Of a DNA stretch of 59,710 nucleotides, positions 10,533-59,512 are shown piece by piece. The position numbers and the translations under genes were made by a program. The stretch's first letter is position 1; each line of letters begins with the position of its first letter. Under the pieces are notes generated by a model. It searched no databases. It saw only the letters and a program-made list of their open reading frames with translations, and was not told the origin of the DNA. Origin of the DNA: Candidatus Butyricimonas faecavium (GTDB taxonomy: Bacteria > Bacteroidota > Bacteroidia > Bacteroidales > Marinifilaceae); assembly GCA_944321125.1 (NCBI GenBank), contig CALUKD010000023.1:1-59710 (forward strand), given 5' to 3'.

Positions 10533-10549
10533 AATACTACTACATTAAT

Positions 10550-13500: not shown

Positions 13501-14128
13501 TAACAACCACTTCTTCCATCAACGCAACGTCTTCCTCCAAAACGACCTCAATATCTTTCTGCCCGGAATAACTTATCTCCTTGGATTTCATTCCGATAAA
13601 AGAAAACTTTAACACGACTTTCTGTCCCTCATAAAATTCGATCTTAAATTTTCCGTCGCCATCTGTTACCGTTCCATAATTACTGCCTTTAATCAACACC
13701 GTCACCCCCGGAATTGTTTCTCCATGCTGATCCCTTACAACCCCGTTAACAGTAATGGACCGTACCTGCAAGGCCTCTTTCCTGATAATAATCAGATTAT
13801 TCTCCAGCAAATATTTCAATCCGGTATCTTTCAAGCAAAAATCCAACACCTCTTTCACCGTTTTATCCTCCATTTGAACCGTCAAATGACCAACTTTTTC
13901 CACATCTTCCATTTTAAAAACAAAAGAATAATCCGTCAATCGTTCAATCTCGGTTAAAACTTCCATAAAAGACACCTCCTCCAGGTGTAACGTCACTCGT
14001 TTTGTTTGCCCGAAAACGGATAAAGAACCTACAATTAACACCATACACATAGACAAACACTTCAGCCTCGATAAAAGCTGCCCTATTTTTCGTTGCACAC
14101 GAAAAACATTCATTCTGTTTTTTTTCAT
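10550..14128 (-). CDS. SusC/RagA TonB-dependent transporter with STN domain
   Basis: A 1192-residue TonB-linked outer membrane transporter. After the signal peptide (ending near SLSVFGQ) come an STN domain at about 45-115, a carboxypeptidase-regulatory-like domain at about 125-205 (VNGVVRDQHGETIPGVTV), the TonB box region and plug (MEEVVVTGYQ, then LKDASATALYGTKAANGVIV), and a long beta barrel ending in SLGVNVSF with a terminal Phe. STN domains in such transporters touch the periplasmic part of a FecR anti-sigma, which is encoded just upstream with its sigma factor. The gene therefore probably both imports the ligand and signals its presence. Confidence 0.94.
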   Translation of the reverse strand: MKKNRMNVFRVQRKIGQLLSRLKCLSMCMVLIVGSLSVFGQTKRVTLHLEEVSFMEVLTEIERLTDYSFVFKMEDVEKVGHLTVQMEDKTVKEVLDFCLKDTGLKYLLENNLIIIRKEALQVRSITVNGVVRDQHGETIPGVTVLIKGSNYGTVTDGDGKFKIEFYEGQKVVLKFSFIGMKSKEISYSGQKDIEVVLEEDVALMEEVVVTGYQVIDRKKLTSAVSSVKASDVMIQGVMSIDQMLQGRIPDMMMVTNSGEVGVVPRIRIRGTSTLIGNREPLWVVDGIVVNDPVPITAEELNDPDYINRIGNAIAGLNPQDIDRIDVLKDASATALYGTKAANGVIVITTKRGNVGDMSVRYNVTGTFKLRPRYTDRRIRVMNSKERVDFSRDLVAAHHVFPTTMTPLGYEALAAQMYNGTITGDVFTQKVKELETMNTDWFKILTEDVFSHQHTLSMSGGTEQLRYYASVGYAVDNDVIKGANNERYTASLNLDAHFSDALSVSLNLLGNVGERNYTQSAINVVDYAYTTSRTMPVYDESGQYYYYRPTTDDYNFNILNELENSFSKQANTGFSCNLNLQYRVFDWLNLQGIFSYSTSNAEIEGYYADKTNYIAKLRYSEYGEEAPTGEYTYSTCPYGGELTKNYNRNNSYTFRLQLSTNNTFGKEQQHNVISDLGFEASSARAHGYIRTDRGYYYERGKQFASGISIDDYPEYKQWLGNNYPSITDDLTNLLAAYVSVSYTYKDLFTLNANTRIDGSNKFGDRSNEKLLPIWSVSGSYNISNHMNLNPRWVSNLTMRLSYGYQGNMLDGQSPVMILRKYPMDAHYNELVSKVEVYPNPELKWEKTSSFNMGLDFGLFNNALQVNTSFYYKLTQDAFLTKDISTVNGRTSYVINSGEIINSGYSVDFSLSPISTDNFRWTLSTSISQVFNEMNTNPGDEEYDLNDFLTGNALTKGHAVGTFYSYKFVGLNPVDGGPMFDTMQERREELIGKSKYDVFTSVLTASGQRDPKIQGSLNNTFRYKSFRLGLSLNYSLGSKVRLFKLYEDGIGFSSLYNVNKDFNKRWRQVGDERSTNIPNLVNANTPESNRYNQRVTVGDGIVVGENAWTMYDSGSQRVVSGNYLQCQNLSFSYDLPERWLKTSRLNSLSITASTTNVFTICSPKLKGQAPVQSGFTEVQLSERPTFSLGVNVSF

Positions 14129-14198
14129 ACTTTTGTTTTGAATTTAATTAAGCATCTTATGATGTTTGCAGGAGGGATCCCTCAATCCCTCTTGCTTT

Positions 14199-15386
14199 TT
14201 ATTTCACCATTGAATTATCGTACACGACAATCTTACGGCCATAAAACATAAATTTAACCCCGTTGGTCTTTTGTAATTTATCCAATACCGTTTCTATATC
14301 ATCATACCGATCCATGTTCACGTAAAAACGAGTTTCCTCCAACCCTTTCTTTCTATACTCCACTTCAAAATCATACCATCTGGCAAGCTCGCAAAATATC
14401 TCTTTCAACGACCTATTCTTTAATATCATCCGCCCGTTTTTCCAACAGATAACCTCATTCACATCAACCCGTTCAACTTTCAACTCTCTGCTACTCTTGG
14501 TATATACTGCCTGGTCGGATGGATTTAATATAACCTCTTCTTCACTCTTGGTGTACTCCTGACTGACTTTTCCGGAAACCAAGGTTGTAACCACATCTTC
14601 ATCCTCCGGATAGGCTTTCACGTTAAAACTAGTTCCCAACACGGTAATTTCCATGTCCGCCGTTTTTACGATAAAAGGTACTTCCGTATTACTGGCAACC
14701 TCAAAATAGGCTTCTCCCGTCAGAAAAACTTCACGTTTCTCCCCCCGAAAAGATTCCGGATAAACTAATTTTGTCAAAGCATTCATCCAAACCCGTGTTC
14801 CATCCCCCAATACCACCTTAAACTCACTTCCCCTCGGTACTTCCAAGGAATGTATTTCGACACCCTGATCTTCTGCCAATTCTTTATTTTCGTAATGAAC
14901 CTCGCGATTATCATTCACAATCACACGGCTATTGGAATCCGCATAAACAACCTTTTTTTCCGTTCCGTCTAATATAACCTTCTTATTTTCCCCTATTGAC
15001 AATACCGCCTGATACTTATCACGTTGTTTTGTCAATTCTGAAAAAACTTTTTTCTCTACGACAGAATCCACCGGTAAATGATGTAACGAAAAAAACACAA
15101 CAGAAACAAACACCACTACCACAGCAGCCGCAATACCGACTGTCCACAAATCCCGGTGTCTAGGTAATTTTTTCAACACCCGCTCTTTTGCTTTATTCAT
15201 ATAAATGGAATCCCACATTCCAGCTATCTGCAACACATATAATTCCCGGATATACTTTTTGAAGAAAAACTCATGCTCTTTATCTTTTTTAATCCAAAGC
15301 AAAAGTTCCCTTTGTCCCTCATCATCCAGATTATTCAAAAAATATTCCGTGATTAATTCTTTTATGTATGACTCTTCAACATTCAT
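14199..15386 (-). CDS. FecR-family anti-sigma factor
   Basis: A 395-residue FecR protein from the ATG at 15386. It has a cytoplasmic N-terminal segment of about 85 residues that would hold the sigma factor, a single membrane helix (TVGIAAAVVVVFVSVVFF) and a periplasmic FecR domain with LEVPRGSEFKVVLGDGTRVWMNA (split by the family's usual layout). The C-terminal DUF4974-type domain, around NRSLKEIFCELARWYDFEV, meets the STN domain of SusC. It lies between the sigma factor and susC, the standard order for Bacteroidota transenvelope signalling. Confidence 0.9.
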   Translation of the reverse strand: MNVEESYIKELITEYFLNNLDDEGQRELLLWIKKDKEHEFFFKKYIRELYVLQIAGMWDSIYMNKAKERVLKKLPRHRDLWTVGIAAAVVVVFVSVVFFSLHHLPVDSVVEKKVFSELTKQRDKYQAVLSIGENKKVILDGTEKKVVYADSNSRVIVNDNREVHYENKELAEDQGVEIHSLEVPRGSEFKVVLGDGTRVWMNALTKLVYPESFRGEKREVFLTGEAYFEVASNTEVPFIVKTADMEITVLGTSFNVKAYPEDEDVVTTLVSGKVSQEYTKSEEEVILNPSDQAVYTKSSRELKVERVDVNEVICWKNGRMILKNRSLKEIFCELARWYDFEVEYRKKGLEETRFYVNMDRYDDIETVLDKLQKTNGVKFMFYGRKIVVYDNSMVK

Positions 15387-15442
15387 GGTTCTGACTTTAT
15401 TAAGACAGACCATCAAAATCAAAAATGGGTGAGTAACTTTTT

Positions 15443-38329: not shown

Positions 38330-38420
38330 AATTTATTTCAATTTAGAATGTAGAATTTAAAATTTAGAATGAAAACTCAGCCTCGTGCTACTAGAATTTA
38401 AAATCTAAAATTTAAAATCA
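38330..38420. repeat. AT-rich intergenic repeat between DUF6266 and amidase genes
   Basis: Units like GAATTTAAAATTTAGAA and AATCTAAAATTTAAAATC flank a short GC-richer core (CTCAGCCTCGTGC). It closely resembles the gap upstream of kamA, 14 kb away, so this is a family rather than chance. Confidence 0.5.
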
Positions 38421-39023
38421 ATAATACTGAATCCACTCCGCCACCCTCAACGCCGGTCCCGGATCCACCTTCCTTGGCGTCACGTCCGAATGCCCCACGA
38501 TATCCCCGATCGGATAAGTATCCACCAGCAAACCACACACCTCGTTCAACACCCGCATCTGCACGTCCGTGTAGTCATGCCAGTACGTCGGCACCTCACC
38601 CGAATCCTCCGTGTACACCTCCTTCACGGGTACTTCTTTCCCAAATTCCGCCACGAACTTTCCTCCTTCCAGTCGCAACTGCCCCAAGTTATCCAGCTCG
38701 ATCCCAATCGAATAATGATTCAGTTCGTTCCTTCCCCTGTAACTACTCTTCCCTGCGTGCCACGCCTCAATATTAAACGGCACTAGTTGTATCACCTGCC
38801 CGTCCCGCCCGATCACCATGTGCGCCGACGCCTTCACGTCCGGTCTCGCCAAGAATTTTGCCGAAGATTCGGCACTCGTACCTGCCGTGTAATGTAAAAT
38901 AATCATATCCGGCACTCCCAGTCCCCGTCTATTCTTCGGGCATTCCAGATGAATCACCCCACCGCCCACCAAACGATAGTTTACTATTGAAAATGGAGAA
39001 TTAGAACTTGAAAATACTTCCAT
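38418..39023 (-). CDS. N-acetylmuramoyl-L-alanine amidase
   Basis: A 201-residue Amidase_2 (T7-lysozyme-like) enzyme. Zinc ligands are His44 in ILHYTAGTS, His178 in VGHSDVTP and probably Asp187 in RKVDPGP; SAHMVIGRDG and AWHAGKSSYRG are family hallmarks. It cuts the amide between muramic acid and the peptide stem of peptidoglycan. No signal peptide is seen, so release would need the holin encoded next to it. It may act as an endolysin or in cell-wall remodelling. Confidence 0.9.
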   Translation of the reverse strand: MEVFSSSNSPFSIVNYRLVGGGVIHLECPKNRRGLGVPDMIILHYTAGTSAESSAKFLARPDVKASAHMVIGRDGQVIQLVPFNIEAWHAGKSSYRGRNELNHYSIGIELDNLGQLRLEGGKFVAEFGKEVPVKEVYTEDSGEVPTYWHDYTDVQMRVLNEVCGLLVDTYPIGDIVGHSDVTPRKVDPGPALRVAEWIQYY

Positions 39024-39063
39024 AACAAAAAATTTAGAATTTAAATTGCTTATCTTTTAGTTT

Positions 39064-39438
39064 TTATCTTTTACCTTTTATCTTAAAAATGGCCTCCGCC
39101 ATTTTTTCCCCGCTCCTTCCCACCACGTATCCTCCCAACCCGATCTCCAATAAATCCCAAAACCGGGAAGTTTCTGCTAGTATCGGTAAACTGGTAAAAG
39201 TCCCGATCAAAATAACACTGGCAAACGTCAACATCACCAGCGGGCGCCACGATCGCTGCAACCAATTCCCCTTCACCTCCTCCTGCACCGTGACTGCTTT
39301 TGCCTGTGTTAATTCTCTCTCCAATTCTTGAATCAATTTCAACAATCCAATTTCCAGCTCTTTCTTCTCCCTCGCCGGGAGTGTTAATTGACCAATCAAC
39401 TCGCTGATCGAATTAACAATTCCACTTATCGGCTTCAT
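39064..39438 (-). CDS. holin of the 3TM gene-transfer-release type
   Basis: A 124-residue protein. A helical N-terminal part (1-55, with a coiled-coil-like KLIQELERELTQAK) is followed by NWLQRSWRPLVML, the hallmark of the 3TM holin family named for gene-transfer-agent release. Membrane segments lie at about 66-85 and 95-108. It sits between DUF6266 copy 1 (6 bp upstream) and the amidase, as expected for a holin-endolysin pair. Confidence 0.75.
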   Translation of the reverse strand: MKPISGIVNSISELIGQLTLPAREKKELEIGLLKLIQELERELTQAKAVTVQEEVKGNWLQRSWRPLVMLTFASVILIGTFTSLPILAETSRFWDLLEIGLGGYVVGRSGEKMAEAIFKIKGKR

Positions 39439-39444
39439 CCCCGT

Positions 39445-40068
39445 TCACAATTTAATGCATTGCGAATTCGAGAATCGTTTCCCATCCGGGGACACGAAGA
39501 AACAATACAAATAAATCCTCACCCCCTTGCCACACTCTAACGGAAAAGTTACTTTTTCTGCCACCCGTAACACCTCCAATCCCTCCAACAACTTCGGGCT
39601 AAATGAACGATTCGAATAAAGCACGACCACATTCAAACGATCTGTCGCCTCAAAATTATATGCCTCCTCGTCATTCTCCCAATCCAACGTGACCATCCCC
39701 TGCTCATCCATTCTCCCCTGTAGATTATACGCCTGTTGTCGTTTCCCGGCAGAAAAATGCAACTGCGAAAAATCACCGATCTTCCCGTTTGCCCGAAACG
39801 CTTTCAAATTCTTCTTCATAAAAAGTGCGTAGCCACTACTACAGATTTTGTCTGCCGAAAGATCCAAAATTCCCTTCAGGGGTGTCTCCTTTATCTTTTG
39901 GTAAAAACGCACTGCCACCCGAAAACGGGACCTTACCTCTTGCTGTTTCGGCGTGTTTGGATCAATTCTATCGGGAACACTCCTCATATAAGATTTCCCG
40001 TTCAACTTGCAGAAAACGACATTCCCTACTCGTCCCCTTATTCCAAATTCATTACGAACTAAAGCCAT
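39445..40068 (-). CDS. DUF6266 protein, copy 1
   Basis: A 207-residue DUF6266 protein, the first gene of the lysis-like cassette. The N-terminus GIRGRVGNVVFCKLNGKSYM and the TPKQQEVRSRFRVA segment are typical. The C-terminal half forms alternating strands, perhaps a beta sandwich. It is clearly related to copy 2, but the two have diverged considerably outside the N-terminus. Function unknown; the companion holin and amidase suggest a role at or across the envelope. Confidence 0.75.
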   Translation of the reverse strand: MALVRNEFGIRGRVGNVVFCKLNGKSYMRSVPDRIDPNTPKQQEVRSRFRVAVRFYQKIKETPLKGILDLSADKICSSGYALFMKKNLKAFRANGKIGDFSQLHFSAGKRQQAYNLQGRMDEQGMVTLDWENDEEAYNFEATDRLNVVVLYSNRSFSPKLLEGLEVLRVAEKVTFPLECGKGVRIYLYCFFVSPDGKRFSNSQCIKL

Positions 40069-40960: not shown

Positions 40961-40990
40961 AAAAATTCCCGGGCGTCATTACCCGGGAAA
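40961..40990 (-). terminator. terminator of the polysaccharide operon
   Basis: On the minus strand, TTCCCGGG and CCCGGGAA form an 8-bp perfect stem with an 8-base loop, followed by TTTTT. It lies about 115 bp after the last gene of the polysaccharide locus and directly before the RteC-like gene. Confidence 0.8.
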
Positions 40991-41104: not shown

Positions 41105-42265
41105 TCATAAATCGTAAATCACTTTCGCCACTCTTTCCACGTCCTCATCCGTCAACGTCGGCCCCGATGGTAAACACAAACCGATCTCGAACAACCGTTC
41201 ACTCGTCCCGTTTCCATAAAATGGAGCATTTTTGAACACGGGCTGTAAATGCATAGGTTTCCACAACGGGCGACTCTCTATACTATCCTCATCAAGAGCC
41301 AACCGAACATCCTCTCTCGTGAATCCGGCCTCCTCCGGATCCACCGTGATACACGTCAACCAGTAATTCGAGTTAAAATCCCCGCCTTCCGGCTGGCACA
41401 TCACCTTCACTCCTTTCACCCCATTCAATAACTTCACGTACAAATCATGAATCTCCCGTCTCCGGGCTACGTGTTCATCCAACACGAACATCTGCCCCCT
41501 CCCAATTCCCGCACAAATATTACTCATCCGGTAATTATAACCGATCTTCTCGTGCTGGTAATGCGGGGCTTGTTCCCTTGCCTGGGTAGCGTAAAACAAA
41601 GCTCGTTTCGCTTTTGCCTCGCTAGGACATATCAAAGCCCCGCCTCCCGACGTCGTGATCATCTTGTTACCGTTAAACGACAGCACCCCGTACACCCCAA
41701 AAGTCCCGCACTTTTTCCCTTTGTATTCTGATCCCAAAGCCTCAGCCGAATCCTCTAATACCGGAATTCCATAACGATTGGCCACTTCCATCACCTCATC
41801 CATCTTCACCGGCATACCGTACAAATGTACCGGAATAATTGCTTTGGGCAGTTTCCCGGTTTTCTCCAACCGATCCTTGATCGCCTCCTCAAGTAACACG
41901 GGATCCATGTTCCAAGTATCTTTTTCACTATCCACGAAAACCGGAGTCGCTTCCAAGTAAGCGATCGGATTTGCCGATGCCGCAAAAGTAAACGACTGGC
42001 AAATCACTTCATCTCCTGGCTCTACTCCCAACAATATCAACCCCAAATGCAACGCAGCAGTCCCCGCACTCAACGCCACGATACACATTCCCTCATTTTC
42101 AATTTGCAACTCTCTATCCTCAATTAAAAAATCCCGTAGAGATTGCTCAAAAGCATTTACATTGGGTCCCAAGGGTACCACCCAGTTCGTATCAAACGCT
42201 TCTTGTATAAATTCTTGTTCTCGTCCGCTCATGTGAGCTAAAGAGAGCCAAATTCTAGGTTTCAT
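41105..42265 (-). CDS. DegT/DnrJ/EryC1 sugar aminotransferase (PglE-like)
   Basis: A 386-residue PLP sugar aminotransferase. The PLP lysine is Lys201 in SFNGNKMITTSGGGA; IPVHLYGMPVKMDEV and EDSAEALGSEYKG are typical of PglE/LegC-type enzymes that aminate a UDP-4-keto-6-deoxy sugar. The usual 4,6-dehydratase (PglF/CapD type) is not in this locus and must be elsewhere. With the NeuD/PglD-like transferase and the PglC-type sugar transferase it suggests a bacillosamine- or QuiNAc4N-like sugar. It is the last gene of the operon. Confidence 0.9.
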   Translation of the reverse strand: MKPRIWLSLAHMSGREQEFIQEAFDTNWVVPLGPNVNAFEQSLRDFLIEDRELQIENEGMCIVALSAGTAALHLGLILLGVEPGDEVICQSFTFAASANPIAYLEATPVFVDSEKDTWNMDPVLLEEAIKDRLEKTGKLPKAIIPVHLYGMPVKMDEVMEVANRYGIPVLEDSAEALGSEYKGKKCGTFGVYGVLSFNGNKMITTSGGGALICPSEAKAKRALFYATQAREQAPHYQHEKIGYNYRMSNICAGIGRGQMFVLDEHVARRREIHDLYVKLLNGVKGVKVMCQPEGGDFNSNYWLTCITVDPEEAGFTREDVRLALDEDSIESRPLWKPMHLQPVFKNAPFYGNGTSERLFEIGLCLPSGPTLTDEDVERVAKVIYDL

Positions 42266-42286: not shown

Positions 42287-42883
42287 TTACCAAGTAAAAC
42301 TTTCTCCATGCCCAGGATAAACACGAATACCCGAATCACACCTATCTTTCAATTTTCGTAAAGACTCCTGTAACTGTAACTTGTTTCCTCCGGGAAGCTT
42401 TACTGGCACTTTAGTTTCTAACAAGGAATCCCCGCTAAATAAATAATTTTCAACCTTCACGCACATACCACCAGCAGAATGCCCCGGGGTTATTACAATC
42501 TCGTAAATTTTCCCATTAATCAGAATCCGCTCCGAATCCGACACAATACGCACAGGCATCTCAATCACGAAAGGTTCACAATACTCTCCCGCATACAAAG
42601 AAAGATTCCCTCTCTGATCTCGAATCTTACGACCACATTCAAATGTAGCAAGTAGATGAAAATCATAATAACGATTTAGAATATTAACTCCCGCACAATG
42701 ATCAAAGTGCTCGTGAGTCAAGAATACCCAAGCAGGATTCAACTTTGTCTCCAAGAAAAAATCTAGAAGTTTAATCCCATCTTGTTCTCCAGGATCAATG
42801 ACAACCACTTCCCTTGCACCATCTTCCCAGAGTATATACATGTTCGACTTAAAGCCCCGGGAAACGACTCTCTCTATATTCAA
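42287..42883 (-). CDS. MBL-fold metallohydrolase
   Basis: A 198-residue metallo-beta-lactamase-fold hydrolase of the glyoxalase II kind. The metal motif is HEHFDHCAG, with further ligands in TPGHSAGGMC, FSGDSLLE and YPGHGESF. Such enzymes often cleave thioesters. It is 4 bp after an ACP gene, so hydrolysis or editing of an acyl-ACP is a reasonable guess, but not shown. Confidence 0.8.
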   Translation of the reverse strand: MNIERVVSRGFKSNMYILWEDGAREVVVIDPGEQDGIKLLDFFLETKLNPAWVFLTHEHFDHCAGVNILNRYYDFHLLATFECGRKIRDQRGNLSLYAGEYCEPFVIEMPVRIVSDSERILINGKIYEIVITPGHSAGGMCVKVENYLFSGDSLLETKVPVKLPGGNKLQLQESLRKLKDRCDSGIRVYPGHGESFTW

Positions 42884-42887
42884 TTTT

Positions 42888-43106
42888 TCAGACTAAACGA
42901 TTCAACTTGGCTTCTATTATATCCAAAGATTTCATCTCCGCAATATCTTCCGGCTCAAAAGACACATTAAATTCATCCTCTAATTCCACTATCAAATTCA
43001 AATGATTTAATGAATCCCATTTAGCACATGTCGTTTGCGAAATATTATCGTGAACTTCATCCAGTTCAAACACCTTTTTCAACACTTCTTTTATTCTATC
43101 TTTCAT
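42888..43106 (-). CDS. acyl carrier protein 1
   Basis: A 72-residue acyl carrier protein. The phosphopantetheine serine is Ser32 in KWDSLNHLNL. Its ATG lies 11 bp inside the end of the FkbH-like gene, so the two are coupled, as expected if the HAD protein loads this carrier. Confidence 0.88.
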   Translation of the reverse strand: MKDRIKEVLKKVFELDEVHDNISQTTCAKWDSLNHLNLIVELEDEFNVSFEPEDIAEMKSLDIIEAKLNRLV

Positions 43107-44685
43107 TATTTTTCAATTTATAAATTTTTGACAAACTTAAATTCAATTCACTCAGATCTCCCGAGTAGTAACAAGTTCCCTCTTTATTTTCCACCAATCT
43201 TAAACCAATCTTGTCGTAAAAATCTTTGACTTGACCATTTTTAACTGTGGGGATATACATTGCGTGAATCGTCCGTATCCCTTCTAACTTTAAAAGGGAT
43301 AAAGTATATCGAACAAAAATATCTTCTATATTTTTACCAAGTATCCTGCAACTTAAAAGCAAGGAGTCAATCATGGCTTCTCCTTGATTGATTGTCACAA
43401 TCATCAAACCTGTTAAACCATTATCACCAAAACGATCTTTCACCCGTAATCCCCATACACGCCCGCCATTCGTCACGAACTCTCGAATATCTGTTTCCGT
43501 GTACCTACGAGTTGTTAGATTAAATTGATTCGTTTTTTGGGTCATCTGAGCCATCCGGACAATATTAAATTCATCCATTAACTCTATCGACAACTCAATC
43601 TCAAGACTCTTTAAATAACTTTCGAAATCGACAAACTGACCTCTACTACGAACTCGTTCTACATTGTCTTTATATTGCTTTACTTTCGTGGTATCTTCCT
43701 CTGTCAAACGGTAAGCACGGAAATAATTTCTCGTTAAAAAACAAGAAAACGGGGAAAATAAATAAGGATTACCGGGGAAATCAGGAACACTCACTGTAGG
43801 TAACAACTGTTTAACCAATTCTCGTTCTGTCGGGTTATCATCAACAAAAACTATACTATCTAAGCCGATATTTAATTCCGTGGCAATTTCTTTTATATTA
43901 TCCGCTTTATTCTTCCAATTTATTCTCCAAGCAACAAAATGCTCTTTACGTAACACCATTTCCGGATGGTCGTTCCAAGCAGATAACACGTCAACCTCAT
44001 TATTCTTGCTACAAACCGTTAAAATGATTCCATTACGCCCGAGTTCTAGTAAATATTCTTGAAAAAAACGATAGCAACACCCAGGATAATCTTCTCCAAG
44101 TTGTATTCCTTCAATACCATCTTCTCCAAGCACTCCCCCCCATAACGTGTTATCTAAATCCAGAACTATACATTTCTTCCGTTTTTGTTCTATCGTTTCT
44201 ACTTGACGTTGGAACCATTCTCGAAAACTTCCTGCCAATTTAGGATTCAAAGGCATTTGGGATATATAGTAATATTTCCAATCTATTAAATCACTTCTCG
44301 AGAATCCTTGGTAGAAATCACTGATATCTACTAATTTTACACCTGCCTTCCGATTTGAAAACTGTCGTATTTTATCATTATACACTCTTATCGCTCTATC
44401 CACTCGGTCATCTATAATTTGAAAATTTTCTTTAAATATTCGTTCCATCGTGAAAACAAGCAACATTTTATCAGTCTGACCAGATACCCAATCCAACATT
44501 CTCCCATAATTCTCTATCTCGTTCGCAACAGTTTCGTCATCACATTTACAGGAGGGCAAGTAAAACCAAATAAAACGATCTGCAGTCTCATCAAAACGAG
44601 AAACATCCTCGTATCCTGAAAACTCGACATTCATTCCCTTAAAGAATGGCTCGATCGTAAAATTCCTAAAAACAAAATACTTCAT
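43096..44685 (-). CDS. FkbH-like HAD-IIIC family protein
   Basis: A 529-residue FkbH-like protein. The N-terminal 165 or so residues are a SGNH-like or accessory part; the HAD motif I is VLDLDNTLWGG with Asp176 and Asp178; FVDDNPTERE is a downstream HAD motif; and the C-terminal third is a GNAT-like domain (MTQKTNQFNLTTRRYTE, GLTGLMIVTI). In polyketide pathways FkbH enzymes take 1,3-bisphosphoglycerate and load a glyceryl group on an ACP. Here ACP1 overlaps the gene, so a similar three-carbon acyl group is likely. Confidence 0.85.
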   Translation of the reverse strand: MKYFVFRNFTIEPFFKGMNVEFSGYEDVSRFDETADRFIWFYLPSCKCDDETVANEIENYGRMLDWVSGQTDKMLLVFTMERIFKENFQIIDDRVDRAIRVYNDKIRQFSNRKAGVKLVDISDFYQGFSRSDLIDWKYYYISQMPLNPKLAGSFREWFQRQVETIEQKRKKCIVLDLDNTLWGGVLGEDGIEGIQLGEDYPGCCYRFFQEYLLELGRNGIILTVCSKNNEVDVLSAWNDHPEMVLRKEHFVAWRINWKNKADNIKEIATELNIGLDSIVFVDDNPTERELVKQLLPTVSVPDFPGNPYLFSPFSCFLTRNYFRAYRLTEEDTTKVKQYKDNVERVRSRGQFVDFESYLKSLEIELSIELMDEFNIVRMAQMTQKTNQFNLTTRRYTETDIREFVTNGGRVWGLRVKDRFGDNGLTGLMIVTINQGEAMIDSLLLSCRILGKNIEDIFVRYTLSLLKLEGIRTIHAMYIPTVKNGQVKDFYDKIGLRLVENKEGTCYYSGDLSELNLSLSKIYKLKNNER

Positions 44686-45087
44686 CTATTCCTCAACTAA
44701 TTCTATTAAACCAAAGTCCTTATTAAATAGAAAACAAATCTTTTTATTAGATAAGGCTACCGCTTGTACTGGGTTGAATAATGGCAAAAATTTCTCCCTC
44801 CTTAATTCGAATAAAGCCACATCTATATCAGGAACAGAATAACACACGTGGTAAGGTGTCACTCCTAACTTTTCCAGTGTTTTAGAAACAGGAGAAATAC
44901 TCGAATGAGGCTCTAAAAGCTCGATCACGGGCATTCCCTCTTTTTTTAAAAAAGATATATTCACATCTTGTACCGGGTCATACATGATATCAGACATTAC
45001 ATATCCCATTTTCAAATAGTAACTAGATGTTTTTGCGATACTATCAGTTGCGATACCTATATGATGGAATTGAAAAGAAGATAACAT
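44686..45087 (-). CDS. VOC-family protein, methylmalonyl-CoA-epimerase-like
   Basis: A 133-residue vicinal-oxygen-chelate protein with metal ligands in FHHIGIATD, TPYHVCYSV and FGLIELVEE. It resembles methylmalonyl-CoA epimerase and glyoxalase I. The gene starts at the base after the KASIII stop and ends at the base before the FkbH-like start, so it is integral to the acyl module. It may epimerise a 2-substituted acyl thioester; no substrate is established. Confidence 0.78.
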   Translation of the reverse strand: MLSSFQFHHIGIATDSIAKTSSYYLKMGYVMSDIMYDPVQDVNISFLKKEGMPVIELLEPHSSISPVSKTLEKLGVTPYHVCYSVPDIDVALFELRREKFLPLFNPVQAVALSNKKICFLFNKDFGLIELVEE

Positions 45088-46140
45088 TCAATATTCTATT
45101 AATGAAGAAACATTACAATTTTGGAACTCGATATAAGAAGTACCCCACGACAATCCTGCACCAAATCCACATAACACAACTTTTGTCTTCGTATCTAATT
45201 TCCCTTTCAATTCGGAAACGATTGTTAGTGGTATTGAAGCAGAACTTGTGTTACCAAAACGTTCCAAACAATACGGAACTTTCCGAGAATCAAATTTCAT
45301 TTTTTTCACGAAGAAATCTGTCATAAATCTATTCGCTTGGTGAAAAATTAAATAGTCCAAATTTTCCAAGGAGATATCAACTCGCTCAAGTACAGACTTT
45401 ATTGATTTAGGTACCACTCGTAATGCAAAATTAAAAACATCCATACCGTTCATATAAATTTGCTGACCAGAACGCTTATTCCCATCTTCTTGTTCTTCAA
45501 CACGAAAATTTTCTATCGAGAATGGATTTCGACATTCTCCCGCAGGAATCATGACAGAATCTTTACCAGAGCCATCTGACATCAATTCAAAATAAGACGT
45601 TGTAAAATCCCCCTTCTCAACAAGCGTTGCTGTTCCTGCATCGCCATAGAGAGGAGCATTTACCTTATCATATAAAGAAGTTATTTTGGAAAATGTTTCC
45701 CCAACTAACAATAACACTCGATTTATTCCTAACATGGAAACATAAGCGTACGCTGTTGACAAAGCATAAACATACCCCGAACACCCTAAACTTAAATCTA
45801 AGCAAGCCGTTGTTTTTGGTAATCCTAAACGCTCTTGCAAGATTGGAGAAGTCGCAGGAATTTTATAATCAGGAGTCTGACTCAAGAATAATAACATATC
45901 AATTGTTGAAAGATCAACATCATTATCTTTTAATAATTGTTTTGCTGCTTCAAAACACAAATCCGAAGCACATACCCCTGCTTCTGCAAAACGTTTCTCA
46001 CTAATCCCAATTGAATTAATAGTTTTATCTATTTCATCTTGAGAAATTAAATAATCAAGATCATGATTATACATAATTTTCGAAGGGACACAAGCAGATA
46101 AGGCCCGTATCCCAACACCATTATAAGTTATAAAAGCCAT
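45088..46140 (-). CDS. beta-ketoacyl-ACP synthase III-like protein 1
   Basis: A 350-residue FabH-like protein from the ATG at 46140 (a longer frame upstream overlaps the SDR gene). The catalytic triad is complete: Cys120 in LSLGCSGYVYA, the histidine in IFHQANRF and the asparagine in FGNTSSAS. It resembles the copy at 46898-47947 along its length. Proteins of this type can also transfer acyl groups or form rings rather than extend chains. Confidence 0.88.
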   Translation of the reverse strand: MAFITYNGVGIRALSACVPSKIMYNHDLDYLISQDEIDKTINSIGISEKRFAEAGVCASDLCFEAAKQLLKDNDVDLSTIDMLLFLSQTPDYKIPATSPILQERLGLPKTTACLDLSLGCSGYVYALSTAYAYVSMLGINRVLLLVGETFSKITSLYDKVNAPLYGDAGTATLVEKGDFTTSYFELMSDGSGKDSVMIPAGECRNPFSIENFRVEEQEDGNKRSGQQIYMNGMDVFNFALRVVPKSIKSVLERVDISLENLDYLIFHQANRFMTDFFVKKMKFDSRKVPYCLERFGNTSSASIPLTIVSELKGKLDTKTKVVLCGFGAGLSWGTSYIEFQNCNVSSLIEY

Positions 46141-46142
46141 TT

Positions 46143-46895
46143 TTATAATGTTCGTCCACCATCTATAACTAAAGTATGTCCAGTTACCCAAGAAGAAGCA
46201 TCAGACAAAAGGTAAATAATACCATAAGCAATATCTAAAGGCTCGCCATACCGCTTTAGAGGATATTTTTTCATATCTTCCTCCAATTGTTGTTTTGACA
46301 AGGTTCCCTCATGAATCAATGGGGTATGAACCATCCCGGGATTCACTGAATTACATCGGATTTTCTTGATCGCAAATTCTTTCGCGGCAAATTTCATGAA
46401 TGTTTCCAAACTAGCTTTTGAACAACCGTATATTCCATTTCCAGCCTCTCGAATCATATGAGATATAGAAGAGGTAAAAACCATCGAAGACGGTTTACCC
46501 ATTTTCTTCTTCTTTATCAACAATCTTGTTAATAAAACAGGTGCAAAAAAATTAGTTTGATAAATTTTTTCCATGTTTTCCATGGAAAAAAACTGAATCG
46601 GTATTGTTATTCCAATACCCGCATTATTCACACAACCATCCAAAACGGGTAACTGTTCCACAAGATTCTCTAACTCATTTTCTAAAGTTAGGTCTGCAAC
46701 AATCTGTTTATGACCGTCTCCCACCAAAGAAGAAAAAGTTTCATCAAGTCTCTCTTGATTTCGCCCAGTTATAATTACTATAGCTCCCATTTTCGAGCAT
46801 TCAATTGCAGTAACTTTTCCAATTCCTGAAGATGCTCCCGTTACCAAAACGGTTTTACCTGATAAAGAAAACGGATTATCTAACATGTTATTCAT
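46143..46895 (-). CDS. SDR-family oxidoreductase (FabG-like)
   Basis: A 250-residue short-chain dehydrogenase. The NAD(P) loop is VTGASSGIGKV, the active site is YGCSKAS (Tyr-x3-Lys) with an upstream serine in VFTSSISHM, and VNNAGIGI is also present. It is flanked on both sides by KASIII genes and could reduce their 3-keto product while bound to an ACP. Confidence 0.88.
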   Translation of the reverse strand: MNNMLDNPFSLSGKTVLVTGASSGIGKVTAIECSKMGAIVIITGRNQERLDETFSSLVGDGHKQIVADLTLENELENLVEQLPVLDGCVNNAGIGITIPIQFFSMENMEKIYQTNFFAPVLLTRLLIKKKKMGKPSSMVFTSSISHMIREAGNGIYGCSKASLETFMKFAAKEFAIKKIRCNSVNPGMVHTPLIHEGTLSKQQLEEDMKKYPLKRYGEPLDIAYGIIYLLSDASSWVTGHTLVIDGGRTL

Positions 46896-46897
46896 TT

Positions 46898-47947
46898 TTA
46901 AATTTCAACTAAATCTGAAATCAACATTCTGTCATCACTTTCAAAAGCTACAGTTCCCCAAGAAAGTCCCACACCAAAACCACAACATAAAAATTTAGTT
47001 ACCCCATTTTTTACCTTTTCCTTCAATTCAGTAACAATAGTAAGAGGTATTGATGCAGAAGAGGTGTTCCCAAAATGTGCCATGGAAGAAGGAACCTTTT
47101 CAGAAGGTAATTTTAATTTTTTTACAATCATTTCATTCATTTTCATGTTAGCTTGATGGAATACGAAATAATCGTATTCATGATAATCAAAAGAATACCT
47201 TTCTGCTAATTTTTTTATCGATTTGGGAGGTACCGAAATTCCGAAAGAAAACACATCCATCCCCTTCATCCTCGTCATCAAGCGATTCACAGGTTTACCA
47301 TCAACTTGTTCCATATCAAACGAATTGACAGACAACTGATTCCTACAACCGCCATCAAGCGTAATGATCGCATCATACCCAGAACCATCTGTACCGAAAT
47401 GGAATTTCATGCTACTCGCACTAACATCAAACTCTAATGCCGTCACGGTTGCAGCATGCCCAAACAACGGATCCCATGGACCATCTACGATGCCTCGAGC
47501 ATCCCCCGCAACGAGTAAACCTTTCTTAATATTTCCATTAGCCACAGAGATCAAGGATGCTATCTCACTAAGTCCATAAACCCATCCGGAACATCCCAAT
47601 GACATATCCGTGGCATAACATTCTTTGCCCAACCCCAAGCGTTCTTGCAAAATACATGCTGTAGCCGGTAAAATATAATCAGCAGTTTGCGACACAAAAA
47701 TAAGTACCTCTATCTCCCTCTTATCCCATTTAAGATCAGAGATTAATTTTTCAGCAGCAGCATATCCAAGATCAGATGTTGTAAAATCTTTTGAACAATG
47801 GCGCTCTACAACTCCCGTGGTTTCTACAAAAGCAGCTGCATCATAATCACTCGATTGAATTGCATCACCAACATTCTGAATAATTTGCTTCGGAACACAG
47901 GCCGAAAAACCAGCGATCCGAACATTATGAATTTCAAAAAATGCCAT
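46898..47947 (-). CDS. beta-ketoacyl-ACP synthase III-like protein 2
   Basis: A 349-residue FabH-like protein with Cys119 in MSLGCSGWVYG, the histidine in VFHQANMKM and the asparagine in FGNTSSAS. It is a paralogue of the copy two genes downstream. Its start codon overlaps the stop of ACP2 by one base, linking it to that carrier. Confidence 0.88.
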   Translation of the reverse strand: MAFFEIHNVRIAGFSACVPKQIIQNVGDAIQSSDYDAAAFVETTGVVERHCSKDFTTSDLGYAAAEKLISDLKWDKREIEVLIFVSQTADYILPATACILQERLGLGKECYATDMSLGCSGWVYGLSEIASLISVANGNIKKGLLVAGDARGIVDGPWDPLFGHAATVTALEFDVSASSMKFHFGTDGSGYDAIITLDGGCRNQLSVNSFDMEQVDGKPVNRLMTRMKGMDVFSFGISVPPKSIKKLAERYSFDYHEYDYFVFHQANMKMNEMIVKKLKLPSEKVPSSMAHFGNTSSASIPLTIVTELKEKVKNGVTKFLCCGFGVGLSWGTVAFESDDRMLISDLVEI

Positions 47948-48177
47948 TATGCTTTACTCTTTACAACATTAAACAAGTCTTCTATAGTTGAAGAAGTATT
48001 AATATCATTACCTTTTAAAGTTACATCATATTCTTCATCCACCATCGCTATAATAGATAGTGCTATTAAAGAAGACCATTCATCCAATTCCTTAAATTTA
48101 GTTTCAGCTGTCAACTCACTCACTTCCGTTTCGTCAAATTGTTCTGCAAACTTTTCAATAAAATCTTGTAATTCCAT
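47947..48177 (-). CDS. acyl carrier protein 2
   Basis: A 76-residue acyl carrier protein. The phosphopantetheine serine is Ser36 (or 35) in DEWSSLIAL. It is the first gene of the acyl module and is distinct from ACP1, so the module has two carriers, one per KASIII or one for the FkbH branch. Confidence 0.82.
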   Translation of the reverse strand: MELQDFIEKFAEQFDETEVSELTAETKFKELDEWSSLIALSIIAMVDEEYDVTLKGNDINTSSTIEDLFNVVKSKA

Positions 48178-48198: not shown

Positions 48199-48837
48199 TT
48201 AATATTTAAATATTTTGGCAGGATTACCTATATAAAGAGAATTAGCCTTAGGCTTATGCATAAGAACACTTCCCGCTCCAAGGCGAACTCCAGAACCAAT
48301 TTTTAATTGCTGTAACACTATTGAATTCACACCAAACAAATTCCCATCTCCAATCGTAGTCTCCCCAGAAATACGCACGCCAGGCATAAGTACATTATAA
48401 GAACCAAGTGTAACATCATGCCCAAGTTGTACACTTCCATTAAGAATATTAAAATCACCAATAGATACATTGCATGAAAAATAGGTACTTCCACCTATTA
48501 TATTGCCTTTCCCTATTGAAAAGTTATCTTCATCCGCACAAGAAAAACCATAAATTATATTCGGAAACATAATTAGAGGATTCGTTATTTTTCTAGAAAC
48601 TTGCATTAAAGAATGAGGGTTTCCTATCGCAATTATAACATTCAATTCTTTTTTCCAAGCATTCAATTCACAAATTCCACCTAACACCCTCCCATATTCA
48701 TTTAATGTTCCAACAGGTTGGCCATCGTCAAAAAAACCGATAAAATCCCAATTTTTTTGTTGACTATTTATTTTTTGTAATAAACAAACCGTTTCCCGCC
48801 CTAATCCACCAGCACCATACACAGCAATCTCTTTCAT
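48199..48837 (-). CDS. NeuD/PglD-type acyltransferase
   Basis: A 212-residue acyltransferase starting MKEIAVYGAGGLGRE, with a Rossmann-like N-terminal part and a C-terminal left-handed beta-helix of hexapeptide repeats (IGKGNIIGGSTYF, SIGDFNILNGS and so on). PglD and NeuD acetylate sugars with acetyl-CoA. Here it lies beside the ACP genes, so the donor might be an acyl-ACP. An ATG five codons upstream (48852) is an alternative that overlaps the sugar transferase gene. Confidence 0.85.
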   Translation of the reverse strand: MKEIAVYGAGGLGRETVCLLQKINSQQKNWDFIGFFDDGQPVGTLNEYGRVLGGICELNAWKKELNVIIAIGNPHSLMQVSRKITNPLIMFPNIIYGFSCADEDNFSIGKGNIIGGSTYFSCNVSIGDFNILNGSVQLGHDVTLGSYNVLMPGVRISGETTIGDGNLFGVNSIVLQQLKIGSGVRLGAGSVLMHKPKANSLYIGNPAKIFKY

Positions 48838-48838
48838 C

Positions 48839-49447
48839 TCAATTATTTCCATTAAAAGGTTCCATTGTCACGCTCGTATCGGAACTAATACCCTCTCGCT
48901 TAAATACTTTACTTATTGTCAAAAAGAAAATTTTCACATCTAACATGAACGAAATGTTATCAACATACCACACATCGTACTCAAACTTTTGTTGCCATGA
49001 AATAGCATTTCTCCCGTTCACTTGTGCCCATCCCGTGATTCCGGGACACACATCATGACGACGTACTTGCTCTTCTGTATACAAAGGTAAATATTGCGGC
49101 AGAAGAGGTCGAGGTCCAATCAAACTCATTTCTCCTTTTAAAACATTAATCAATTGAGGTAACTCATCTATCGACGTGGAACGTACAAAACGTCCAACCG
49201 ACGTCAAGCGCTCTACATCCGGCAATAATTTACCTTCCATATCCCGCTTATCTGTCATTGTTTTAAACTTAATTACTTTAAACTCTTTCCCCTTCTTCCC
49301 TATTCTTGTTTGAAAAAAGAACACCCCAACCTTTCTATTTGCAAAATATAACCACAAAGTAACAACTAATAACATAGGCCCAATCGTCAGTAAGATAAGA
49401 AGCACTATCACCAAATCAAGCCTTCGTTTTATTTTATTTCTATACAT
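48839..49447 (-). CDS. initiating sugar-phosphate transferase (PglC-like)
   Basis: A 202-residue monotopic sugar transferase: one N-terminal membrane segment (LDLVIVLLILLTIGPMLLVV), then FKVIKFKTMTD, TSIDELPQLINVLKGEMSLIGPRP and GITGWAQVNGRN. It attaches the first sugar-1-phosphate to undecaprenyl phosphate on the inner membrane, starting each repeat unit. It is the short PglC form without the five extra helices of WbaP. Confidence 0.93.
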   Translation of the reverse strand: MYRNKIKRRLDLVIVLLILLTIGPMLLVVTLWLYFANRKVGVFFFQTRIGKKGKEFKVIKFKTMTDKRDMEGKLLPDVERLTSVGRFVRSTSIDELPQLINVLKGEMSLIGPRPLLPQYLPLYTEEQVRRHDVCPGITGWAQVNGRNAISWQQKFEYDVWYVDNISFMLDVKIFFLTISKVFKREGISSDTSVTMEPFNGNN

Positions 49448-50626: not shown

Positions 50627-51889
50627 TTACAACCGCCCATCTACAATTTCTCTGGGTAAAAAAGATTTTACATCAAAAATTACACTATTCTCCTTCAATA
50701 AAATAGGGATATCCAAATCTTTAAACTCATCATGGGCTACCGCAAGAATTATTGCATCATATTTACACGATGATAACTCACTCTTAACCTCTATATGATA
50801 TTCTCTTTCGACAATCTTCGGATCTACCCACTGATCATAAACATCAACATTTAAATTATACATTTTCAATGTCTTGTAGACATCAATCACTTTGGTATTT
50901 CGTACATCAGGACAATTTTCTTTAAAAGTGAAACCTAAAATCAATATATTAGAATATAATACTTGTATCCCTTTTTTCAACATCAGTTTAATCACCTCAT
51001 TAGCCACATACTCACCCATTCCATCATTCATCTGCCGCCCCGATAAAATAATCTCTGGATTATAGCCATGACGCTGTGCACATTGTGCCAGATAATAAGG
51101 ATCCACTCCTATGCAATGCCCTCCAACCAATCCGGGTTTAAATGGCAAAAAATTCCATTTTGTAGAAGCAGCCTCCAACACATCTTGCGTATCTATTCCA
51201 AGTTTATTAAAAATTTTAGACAATTCGTTAACAAAAGCAATGTTGATATCTCTTTGTGAATTTTCTATCACCTTTGCAGCTTCAGCAACTTTTATACTCG
51301 GAGCAAGGTGAGTTCCAGCCGAAATCACTGCAGCGTACACATCATTTACCTTTTGACCGATCTCAGGTGTAGACCCAGAAGTAACTTTCTTGATCTTCTC
51401 TACTGAATGAAACTTATCTCCCGGATTTATTCTTTCCGGAGAATATCCTGCAAAAAAATCCTCATTATATTTCAAACCAGAAACTTTTTCTACAACAGGA
51501 ATACACTCATCTTCTGTCACTCCTGGATAAACTGTTGACTCATAAACCACAATATCACCTCTAGAAATCACCTCTCCTACTGTTGTACTAGCACGATATA
51601 AGGGTGTCAAGTCAGGAGTATTATTTCTATCTACTGGGGTTGGTACTGCTACAACATAAAAATTACATGCTCGAATTTCCTCGATATCTGTTGTACAATA
51701 TAACCCACACTTTAACGCCTCTTGCAACAAATCATCATTAATCTCCAATGTTGAATCATGACCTGACATTAAAGAATCAACTCGATCTTGATTCATATCA
51801 AAACCTATTGTTTGGTATTTAGTTGAAAATAAACGAGCCAAAGGAAGCCCCACATATCCCAAACCTATCACTGCAATTTTAATCTTCAT
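50627..51889 (-). CDS. UDP-N-acetylhexosamine 6-dehydrogenase (WbpO/TviB-like)
   Basis: A 420-residue nucleotide-sugar dehydrogenase from the ATG at 51889. It has the NAD loop [23 protein letters not shown], the catalytic cysteine in [13 protein letters not shown] and [18 protein letters not shown]. It oxidises C6 of a UDP-sugar to the uronic acid. Paired with the adjacent 4-epimerase it most likely makes UDP-GalNAcA. Confidence 0.9.
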
Positions 51890-51897
51890 GTAATATT

Positions 51898-52872
51898 TCA
51901 TTTTAAATTTTTCCAATACCACCCTATAGCTTCTTTTAAGCCATCCCGTAAACAAAATTTAGGCTTATAACCAAGTAAATCTCGAGCCTTATCAATAGAA
52001 GCTAACGAGTGTGGAATATCGCCTAAACGACAAGGTCCATGCAAAACCTTTATATCCGCAATAGTTGGATCAAATTCACTTAGAAACTCTTTCAGATATT
52101 CAACTAATTGATTTAAAGTTGTCTGTTCACCGAAAGCTGTGTTATAAATTTGATTAACAGCTCGAGGATTGGATGTCAACAATGCAAGCATATTCATTTG
52201 GATGACATTATCAATATAAGTAAAATCCCGACTATATTCCCCATCTCCATTAAGTACAGGACTTTCATGATTCATAAATTGTTTCACAAACAAAGGTATT
52301 ACAGCCGCATAAGTTCCATAAGGATCCTGACGACGGCCAAAAACATTAAAATAACGTAATCCTATATATTCCATTCCATATGTTCGTGCAAATACATCTG
52401 CATACAATTCATCCACGTATTTTGTAATTGCATAAGGCGATAATGGCTTACCTATAACATCTTCTACTTTTGGAAGTAAAAGACTATCCCCATAAGTCGA
52501 AGAACTAGCGGCAAAGACAAAACGTTTTATTCCAGCATCCCGCGAAGCAACTAACATATTTACAAACCCATCAATATTCACGGCATTTGTGGTTACTGGA
52601 TCTTTAATGGAACGAGGAACAGAACCTAATGCAGCTTCATGTAAAACATAATCAATTCCCTCAACTGCTTTTCGACAATCTGAAAATTCACGAATATCTC
52701 CCACAATCAATTTGAACCTATCTGGATACTGTGACAACAAAGACAAGATATTCTCTATTTTACCTGTTGCAAAATTATCTAAACATACCACAGCATAATC
52801 ATGAGCAAGTAAAAATTCACAAAGATTCGAACCAATAAAACCAGCACCACCCGTCACTAAAACTTTTATCAT
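51898..52872 (-). CDS. UDP-N-acetylglucosamine 4-epimerase (WbpP/TviC-like)
   Basis: A 324-residue SDR epimerase from the ATG at 52872: [14 protein letters not shown], the YAITK active site in [14 protein letters not shown], and [23 protein letters not shown], the pattern of WbpP/TviC. It lies just upstream of the dehydrogenase. Together they convert UDP-GlcNAc to UDP-GalNAcA, as in Vi antigen and O6 synthesis. Confidence 0.9.
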
Positions 52873-53019
52873 AAACACAACATTTAAATCAATAACCACA
52901 TATAAAACACCAAACAATATTTAATAATTATCCATTTTTAATAGATAATTTGTCATCACTAAGGAATCTGTATAAAATATAGCCCTTCCAAATATCTTTA
53001 AAAACACTTTTATTCTATT

Positions 53020-58990: not shown

Positions 58991-59512
58991 TTACTCTATT
59001 TTTTCCAAAAACGAACTCGGTATATAAGACGTGGCAATAGATGCCACGCCATCCAATCGAATGACAACCCGCTTGTGTCCTTTCAAGCGTACCAGTTCCC
59101 CCTCCAGACCCGACAAAGGCCCCTTGATCACTCGTACCCGATCTCCCCTTTTCAAGTCTTTATTAAGCACCTCCACGCCATCGGTCGAGAAGTCTAACAA
59201 GAACATGAAATCTTCCATTTGTTTATCCGGAATAATCAATGAACAACGTCCTTCACGATCTTTCAAGTAAACAATATTCAACAAGTGATCGTTCAGTAAA
59301 GAGAAACTAGTCGTTTTATCTGTCCGGATAAAGATCAATCCATGAATTAGAATTACCCTAATCTTCTTTCGACCGAGTGGAGTCTCACGTACTCGCTCTT
59401 CCTGTGGCAGGTAATTTTCTACCCCTAACTCGTCTAGTTTCTTTTTAATGACCAATTCTTGATTTACACGGGTATAGGCGGCATACCAGTTTAATTTATC
59501 AGTCGTTATCAT
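58991..59512 (-). CDS. upxY: UpxY-family transcription antiterminator
   Basis: A 173-residue NusG paralogue: NusG N-terminal domain from LNWYAAYTRVNQELVIKKKL to about residue 105, and a KOW domain with RGDRVRVIKGPLSGLEGELV. UpxY proteins keep RNA polymerase from stopping early in their own capsule operon, acting at the 5' leader. It is the first gene of the operon. A leader hairpin lies about 50-95 bp before its start. Confidence 0.88.
   Translation of the reverse strand: MITTDKLNWYAAYTRVNQELVIKKKLDELGVENYLPQEERVRETPLGRKKIRVILIHGLIFIRTDKTTSFSLLNDHLLNIVYLKDREGRCSLIIPDKQMEDFMFLLDFSTDGVEVLNKDLKRGDRVRVIKGPLSGLEGELVRLKGHKRVVIRLDGVASIATSYIPSSFLEKIE

Follow-up and report, generated by a model that had tools for sequence, protein, structure and literature searches.

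What does a run of eight genes for acyl chemistry make inside a capsule operon of Candidatus Butyricimonas faecavium? The genes occupy positions 42287–48177 of a 59,710-nucleotide stretch (assembly GCA_944321125.1, contig CALUKD010000023.1), analysed whole and referred to here as the window. Open reading frames (ORFs) and family matches agree that all eight are real and tightly packed on the minus strand, in the order of the original prediction: an acyl carrier protein (ACP2), a ketoacyl-ACP synthase III (KASIII-1), a short-chain dehydrogenase/reductase (SDR), a second KASIII (KASIII-2), a vicinal oxygen chelate (VOC) protein, an FkbH-like protein, a second carrier protein (ACP1) and a metallo-β-lactamase (MBL)-fold protein. 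We consider it likely that they make a short hydroxylated acyl chain, which is then transferred to one amino sugar in the capsule. The locus had been described as a mini polyketide pathway rather than sugar chemistry; a polyketide-like pathway is indeed what the genes indicate, but the contrast misleads, as making the sugar's acyl group seems to be what the pathway is for. The earlier interpretation is supported in part; its core idea stands, and is sharpened below into a starter block and an elongation and transfer block.

Families, kept residues and related loci agree on a dedicated ACP, KASIII and reductase pathway. The residues named here are those with catalytic roles in KASIII, SDR, ACP, FkbH, NeuD and MBL-fold proteins, and the metal ligands of VOC proteins. 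ACP2 (47947–48177; PP-binding; Ser36 in 51/51 aligned ACP2-like rows) would carry intermediates of the elongation and transfer block, and ACP1 (42888–43106; PP-binding; Ser32 in 21/21 rows) the FkbH product. Both condensing enzymes match ACP_syn_III_C: KASIII-1 (KS1; 46898–47947) has Cys119, His264 and Asn294 in 28/28 rows and likely performs a second condensation, and KASIII-2 (KS2; 45088–46140), with Cys, His and Asn in 22/22 rows, likely performs the first with an FkbH-derived starter; its ATG at 46140 is preferred over the TTG at 46191 of the ORF list. The SDR (46143–46895; adh_short_C2), with Tyr156 and Lys160 in 61/61 rows and Ser143 in 59/61, is a likely 3-oxoacyl-ACP2 reductase. The FkbH-like protein (43096–44685) scores 284.8 bits against TIGR01686 (cut-off 146.65) and has HAD and C-terminal parts, with Asp176, Asp178 and Cys446 invariant in 20/20 rows. 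Its predicted model (mean predicted local distance difference test score 86, predicted template-modelling score 0.48) resembles 3slr across the N-terminal and phosphatase parts, as well as GNAT folds, a three-part build also known for other FkbH-like proteins (PMC12304814, in the part at hand). With HAD aspartates and a predicted acyltransferase part it has the marks of an FkbH domain, and it probably loads ACP1 with a glyceryl-type group.

The VOC protein (44686–45087; Glyoxalase_4; His8, His9, Glu56, His80 and Glu129 in 17/17 rows) is a possible 2-epimerase of the starter thioester. Its nearest solved chains are labelled glyoxalase I and, next, methylmalonyl-CoA epimerase; a true methylmalonyl-CoA epimerase was rejected at 54.8 bits against a family cut-off of 114.95, though the metal-ligand positions are kept. 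The MBL-fold protein (42287–42883; Lactamase_B; HxHxDH, His135, Asp152 and His192 in 10/10 rows) is GloB-like and may be an editing thioesterase. GloB is its nearest solved chain, and assignment as a true GloB (glyoxalase II) fails at 63.0 bits against the TIGR03413 cut-off of 200.8, though HxHxDH is kept. Adjoining ACP2 on the same strand is a NeuD/PglD-like N-acyltransferase (48199–48852; PglD_N and Hexapep; His145-Asp146 in 34/34 rows), which by family and tree would likely perform the final step of the module.

Relatives were surveyed in 393 genomes of the order and in a named-contig scan limited to the 80 best candidate loci out of 553, where several contigs are short and absences are upper bounds (numbers with L and G are our handles for loci and genomes). 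An FkbH-like match at E 1e-40 occurs in 28 of the 393 genomes, nearly full length and above 470 bits in four: the window's own genome, G123, G353 and G099. G353 belongs to the same family but another genus, and 20 further genomes examined as relatives, five of them of the same genus, all lack the FkbH gene at E 1e-40. L043 to L064 align with FkbH at 40–53% identity across roughly 500 residues or longer stretches; with G123, G353 and G099 they form a set of 25 full-length FkbH loci. According to their records, the hosts of FkbH loci include assemblies of Bacteroidales, Prevotellaceae and Verrucomicrobia, along with Chryseobacterium jejuense, Bergeyella and a Spirochaetia bacterium. All 25 full-length loci have an ACP1-like frame no more than 3 kb away, with a KASIII within 5 kb in 21/25, VOC within 4 kb in 17, and NeuD, DegT and MBL within 8 kb in 16, 14 and 7; in 64 loci with a distant FkbH the counts at the same distances are 40, 3, 12, 3, 17 and 3. 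The block genes accompany FkbH more often than chance would have it. Searches with KASIII-1, KASIII-2 and NeuD gathered FkbH-less loci, and the 49 tested have FkbH in none, VOC in none, MBL in 3, NeuD in 28, DegT in 24 and PglC in 24; they include single-KASIII sets, two-KASIII sets and, in L259 and L260, sets that carry an AMP-binding ligase. The distribution of the MBL gene (7/25 against 3/49) rules it out as an FkbH-specific component.

The gene set falls into two blocks, NeuD-ACP2-KASIII-1-SDR for elongation and transfer and KASIII-2-VOC-FkbH-ACP1 for the starter, and the first, ACP2-like genes included, also occurs without FkbH. In a careful KASIII tree (88 rows, after removal of 14 near copies and two fabH outgroups), the KASIII-2 of FkbH loci fall on one side of a single branch (20/20 rows; 99/91; 100% of 200 bootstrap trees), and in a quick tree of all 99 rows with a fabH outgroup all 22 form one clade (support 93, not starred). 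As a reverse check on FkbH-based sampling, the 393 genomes were searched with KASIII-2. Three of the 55 genomes that matched did so at 54% identity or more (the window's own, G123 and G353), all with a full-length FkbH; the other 52 reach at most 50%, none has a full-length FkbH, and in five of them a distant FkbH is present, always on a different contig. Nine positions separate FkbH-linked from FkbH-less KASIII-2 (20 vs 16 rows), which is weak evidence. At L034:633–1694 the KASIII-1 gene is broken by one in-frame stop (TAA), where sequencing error and decay are indistinguishable; its pieces were left unjoined and out of all trees.

The KASIII-1 rows of FkbH loci do not form one clade (three changes are needed). 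The window's KASIII-1 pairs with that of L260 (100/93) and then L259 (100/99), both without FkbH and with an AMP-binding ligase, and its SDR sits in a four-row group with three FkbH-less rows (96) and goes with the SDRs of L260 and L259; L260 retains the order NeuD-ACP2-KASIII-1-SDR. Because KASIII-1 and SDR group with FkbH-less ligase loci and KASIII-2 groups with FkbH loci, the window is a mosaic, its elongation part nearest to ligase-fed modules and its starter part nearest to FkbH modules without KASIII-1. The relatives suggest that bacteria exchange the chain-starting enzymes and keep the remainder of the pathway.

In 11 of the 12 distant-FkbH loci that have a VOC gene no KASIII is nearby, and since VOC thus lies near FkbH but not near KASIII, its substrate would seem to be the FkbH product. 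Five FkbH-linked KASIII-2 whose loci lack VOC (L035, L043, L055, L056 and L059) cluster together (100/99); the remaining 15 FkbH-linked loci in the tree, L044 included, have VOC (94/91). The split fits a VOC protein that would act before KASIII-2, without proving it.

A comparable link ties NeuD to the module. The careful NeuD tree (53 rows, four long-branch rows removed) contains a 29-row group of 14 FkbH-locus, 14 two-KASIII and one other NeuD (92/89), which holds 14 of the 15 FkbH-locus NeuDs and has support of 97 in the quick tree of all 57 rows. Among the 393 genomes, NeuD matches of at least 50% identity lie near a KASIII in 6/6 cases, the window included, and those of 36–42% in 0/4, one being on a short contig. 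Six NeuDs have no KASIII in their vicinity, and five of these fall outside the 29-row group: L263 and L264 stand beside PglC and DegT genes 59–69% identical to the window's, and the contig of L262 is too short for judging KASIII presence. The sixth, L268, lies next to an ACP on a contig of 3.4 kb and groups with NeuDs of single-KASIII modules (100/99). Where an FkbH or two-KASIII module comes with a different aminotransferase (L035, L157–L159, L186), a third NeuD type is found. The Flavobacteriaceae-like L187, L189 and L192 each have one NeuD next to DegT and a second next to ACP2, with only the ACP2-side copy in the 29-row group. NeuD of this type follows the module, not the sugar genes, and the NeuD-like neighbour, suggested earlier as the transferase, is indeed the likely one.

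The block belongs to a single capsule operon. A same-strand run of minus-strand genes extends from the UpxY antiterminator at the operon head (58991–59512; NF033644, 158.6 bits, cut-off 100) to a DegT aminotransferase (41105–42265), 3′ of which lies a terminator-like hairpin (40966–40989, minus strand); the consensus scan found 18 such sites against 9.7 expected by chance, so one site alone is weak evidence. On one side the block is flanked by NeuD and a PglC-like small phosphoglycosyltransferase (48839–49447; TIGR03025, 236.9 bits, under the cut-off of 295.55, with size and position in agreement), on the other by the DegT protein, a PglE-like 4-aminotransferase of the putative acceptor sugar (LegC family, 359 bits, under the cut-off of 420). 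The best solved chains of the latter are 1o61 and 4ztc, which we take to be C. jejuni PglE. The 4,6-dehydratase expected for a bacillosamine-type sugar was not found within the window; contig C10 of the same genome has two full-length CapD/PglF-like frames (open frames of 664 and 665 aa), which could supply it. Also on the minus strand, a TviB-like UDP-GlcNAc 6-dehydrogenase (50627–51955; NF011729, 561.2 bits, under the cut-off of 592; TIGR03026 above cut-off) is a candidate for serving the second sugar of the repeat, and a TviC-like C-4 epimerase lies at 51898–52917 (NF011728, 359.6 bits, under the cut-off of 760). Downstream of the operon, positions 38418–40068 hold an Amidase_2 gene and a DUF6266 gene. 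Elsewhere in the window, positions 9012–15422 hold a typical Bacteroidales uptake set of SusD-like, TonB receptor (with a carboxypeptidase-regulatory domain) and FecR genes.

Read as a pathway, FkbH would use 1,3-bisphosphoglycerate to charge ACP1 with a glyceryl-type group, the VOC protein may adjust the configuration beside the thioester, and KASIII-2 would condense this starter with malonyl-ACP2. After reduction of the 3-oxo group by the SDR, KASIII-1 would add a second malonyl unit and the SDR reduce again, on ACP2, while the MBL protein might remove wrong or stalled thioesters. NeuD would then transfer the chain onto the 4-amino position of a UDP-bacillosamine-type sugar, whose synthesis would fall to the PglE-like aminotransferase and to a PglF-like dehydratase with its gene outside the locus, and the PglC-like enzyme would begin the repeat by likely transferring the acylated sugar onto the lipid carrier, which makes it the likely first sugar of the repeat. 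With glyceryl as starter the product may be 3,5,6,7-tetrahydroxyheptanoyl, a tentative assignment that we hold with less than even confidence. Where the original prediction foresaw an N-acyl or ester group on the surface polysaccharide, an N-acyl group on the 4-amino position of a bacillosamine-type sugar is the more likely, and an ester the less likely. Some relatives may tailor such chains: a related module contains an FkbM-type methyltransferase (L034:1703–2806), so that O-methylation of the acyl chain is conceivable, and Rieske-type oxygenases lie in FkbH-less two-KASIII modules beside another amino-sugar aminotransferase (L157:10040–11128, L158:9205–10290), where a hydroxylated acyl group is possible.

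The nearest published system is the set of O-polysaccharide genes wfpC, wfpD, wfpE, wfpF and wfpG of Flavobacterium psychrophilum (loci deposited as MK214915 and MK214917), which encode an ACP, two ketosynthases, a reductase and a PglD homologue; the structure of the R-group was measured, and the assignment of these genes to 3,5-dihydroxyhexanoyl on Qui2NAc4N is the authors' prediction (PMC6519341). To judge from the portions of that paper drawn on here, the two loci share an ACP, two different ketosynthases, a ketoreductase, a PglD homologue, pglE and a PglC homologue. The wfp acyl group sits on the 4-amino of Qui2NAc4N, likely the reducing end, the same position as proposed for the window; these portions name no FkbH or VOC, and the wfp cluster includes pglF, whereas the window locus is without it (PMC6519341). 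By its sequence the window appears to hold a module of this N-acyl type, having a dedicated ACP with its serine, two KASIII with Cys-His-Asn, and an adjoining reductase and PglD homologue. L161 has the reported F. psychrophilum arrangement without FkbH, in the order PglC, KASIII, NeuD, ACP, KASIII-1, SDR, PglE-like and PglF-like. Related acyl groups are known: both F. psychrophilum and Vibrio cholerae O3 have 3,5-dihydroxyhexanoyl, and 3-hydroxybutyryl-bacillosamine is described as well (PMC3210612, in part). An FkbH-domain gene also lies in a glycan locus of Campylobacter jejuni, where cj1302 and cj1301 (annotated epimerase) belong to the flagellar glycosylation locus and glyceric acid derivatives occur on the glycan. 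The dimethylglyceric acid on pseudaminic acid is linked there to cj1295, a link not shown for cj1302, and the parts of these sources at hand describe no two-KASIII elongation (PMC7099621, PMC3068675). In the open-access literature searched, no paper was found that combines FkbH with polysaccharide terms.

Several points weigh against an FkbH-started chain transferred by NeuD. What the sequences show is the gene order, the families, the kept catalytic residues, the two-block history and the links of KASIII-2 and VOC to FkbH and of this NeuD type to the module; each catalytic step, the glyceryl starter, the order of the condensations and the product are inferred from these, and wfp is likened to the module by its published gene description. 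The starter might be lactyl or another group, a single SDR has to serve two reductions, PglF is encoded outside the locus, and the two ACPs pass their family cut-off narrowly (PP-binding, 21.9 and 22.0 bits vs 20.8). KASIII-1 is missing from most FkbH loci, which makes the window a less common combination, and the VOC/KASIII-2 split amounts to just one change in the phylogeny. The NeuD grouping (92/89) falls under the tool's star threshold, and its sole FkbH-locus exception, L035, stands beside a different aminotransferase. NeuD is not near 9 of the 25 FkbH loci, and the NeuD match counted at L057 is one of 23% over 86 residues. In the pathway's favour, six of the nine carry another likely acyltransferase, of hexapeptide type in L055, L056 and L059 and GNAT-like in L034, L049 and L060, the genes of L049 and L060 scoring under the Pfam cut-off; L036 gave no family in a scan that covered all of the nine but L051 and L058.

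The best surviving alternative, which we regard as improbable, is that the locus makes two separate acyl groups moved by different transferases: a glyceryl group from FkbH, VOC and ACP1, and a 3,5-dihydroxyhexanoyl group built from acetyl-CoA by the two KASIII, SDR and ACP2. Four of the 25 loci (L036, L049, L058, L060) do have an FkbH-ACP1 pair with no KASIII close by and are candidates for direct glyceroyl transfer, and two-KASIII modules exist without FkbH. The Neisseria system of PglB2 and GATDH has a glycerate-derived amide (glyceroyl) on a bacillosamine-type sugar, as in the present proposal, yet with another transfer domain and with FkbH, ACP and KASIII unnamed in the part of the source at hand (PMC6959607). 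On the other hand, the FkbH-side KASIII-2 form a clade of their own, apart from FkbH-less KASIII-2, as expected if KASIII-2 accepts the FkbH product, and the scanned window genes offer NeuD as the one transferase beside the block.

Very improbable is a tetronate-type product, for which KASIII-1 would supply a 3-oxoacyl thioester, KASIII-2 would join this to glyceryl-ACP1 and a ring compound would be released. The attraction is that FkbH and an ACP load glyceryl in tetronate clusters, and that FkbH-like protein, stand-alone ACP and FabH-like KASIII, the trio present in the window, form the core of the tetronate glycerate-utilisation operon (Mad7/Mad8/Mad16; PMC7489565, in part). The window differs in being a capsule operon and in having a second KASIII, an SDR, a second ACP and NeuD, and a ring product is not expected; its block lies between the PglC/NeuD and PglE-like genes, NeuD is nearby in 16 of 25 relatives, and KASIII-2 is sister to the KASIII of FkbH-less modules in a tree without tetronate KASIII. 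The original prediction had allowed KASIII a cyclising role, which gains no positive support: both KASIII keep the Cys-His-Asn of ordinary condensing enzymes, an amide transferase adjoins, and a tetronate-type product would leave NeuD no thioester. KASIII as ring former was rejected. Equally improbable is the idea that the module sits in the operon by accident and makes a lipid or a free metabolite with no tie to the sugar, as might be imagined from L238, L239, L241 and L243, among AMP-binding ligases with no NeuD in view, since NeuD type tracks the module and the module recurrently adjoins PglC, NeuD and DegT genes.

New in the present locus are an FkbH starter in a capsule setting, the starter/elongation mosaic and, possibly, a VOC activity; we know of no report of 2-epimerase activity on glyceryl-ACP. 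A bolder generalisation, which we think rather unlikely to hold in full, is that a modular type II polyketide code operates in the capsule loci of Bacteroidota. A common KASIII-1/SDR/ACP2/NeuD block would be fed by starter blocks that can replace one another (FkbH, ACP1 and VOC; an AMP-ligase and its ACP; or acetyl-CoA and a different KASIII), the acyl group on bacillosamine could be read from gene content, the window would specify a 3,5,6,7-tetrahydroxyheptanoyl amide, and the VOC protein would be a glyceryl-ACP 2-epimerase.

If the proposed pathway is true, the FkbH starter system of antibiotic polyketides would also decorate Bacteroidales capsules, and the capsule acyl group would be predictable from gene content. 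A function would be suggested for the VOC family that travels with FkbH. There would also be a candidate enzyme class for glyceroyl groups without known genes, such as that of Tannerella forsythia, for which the candidate gene has been elusive (PMC6120980, in the part at hand).

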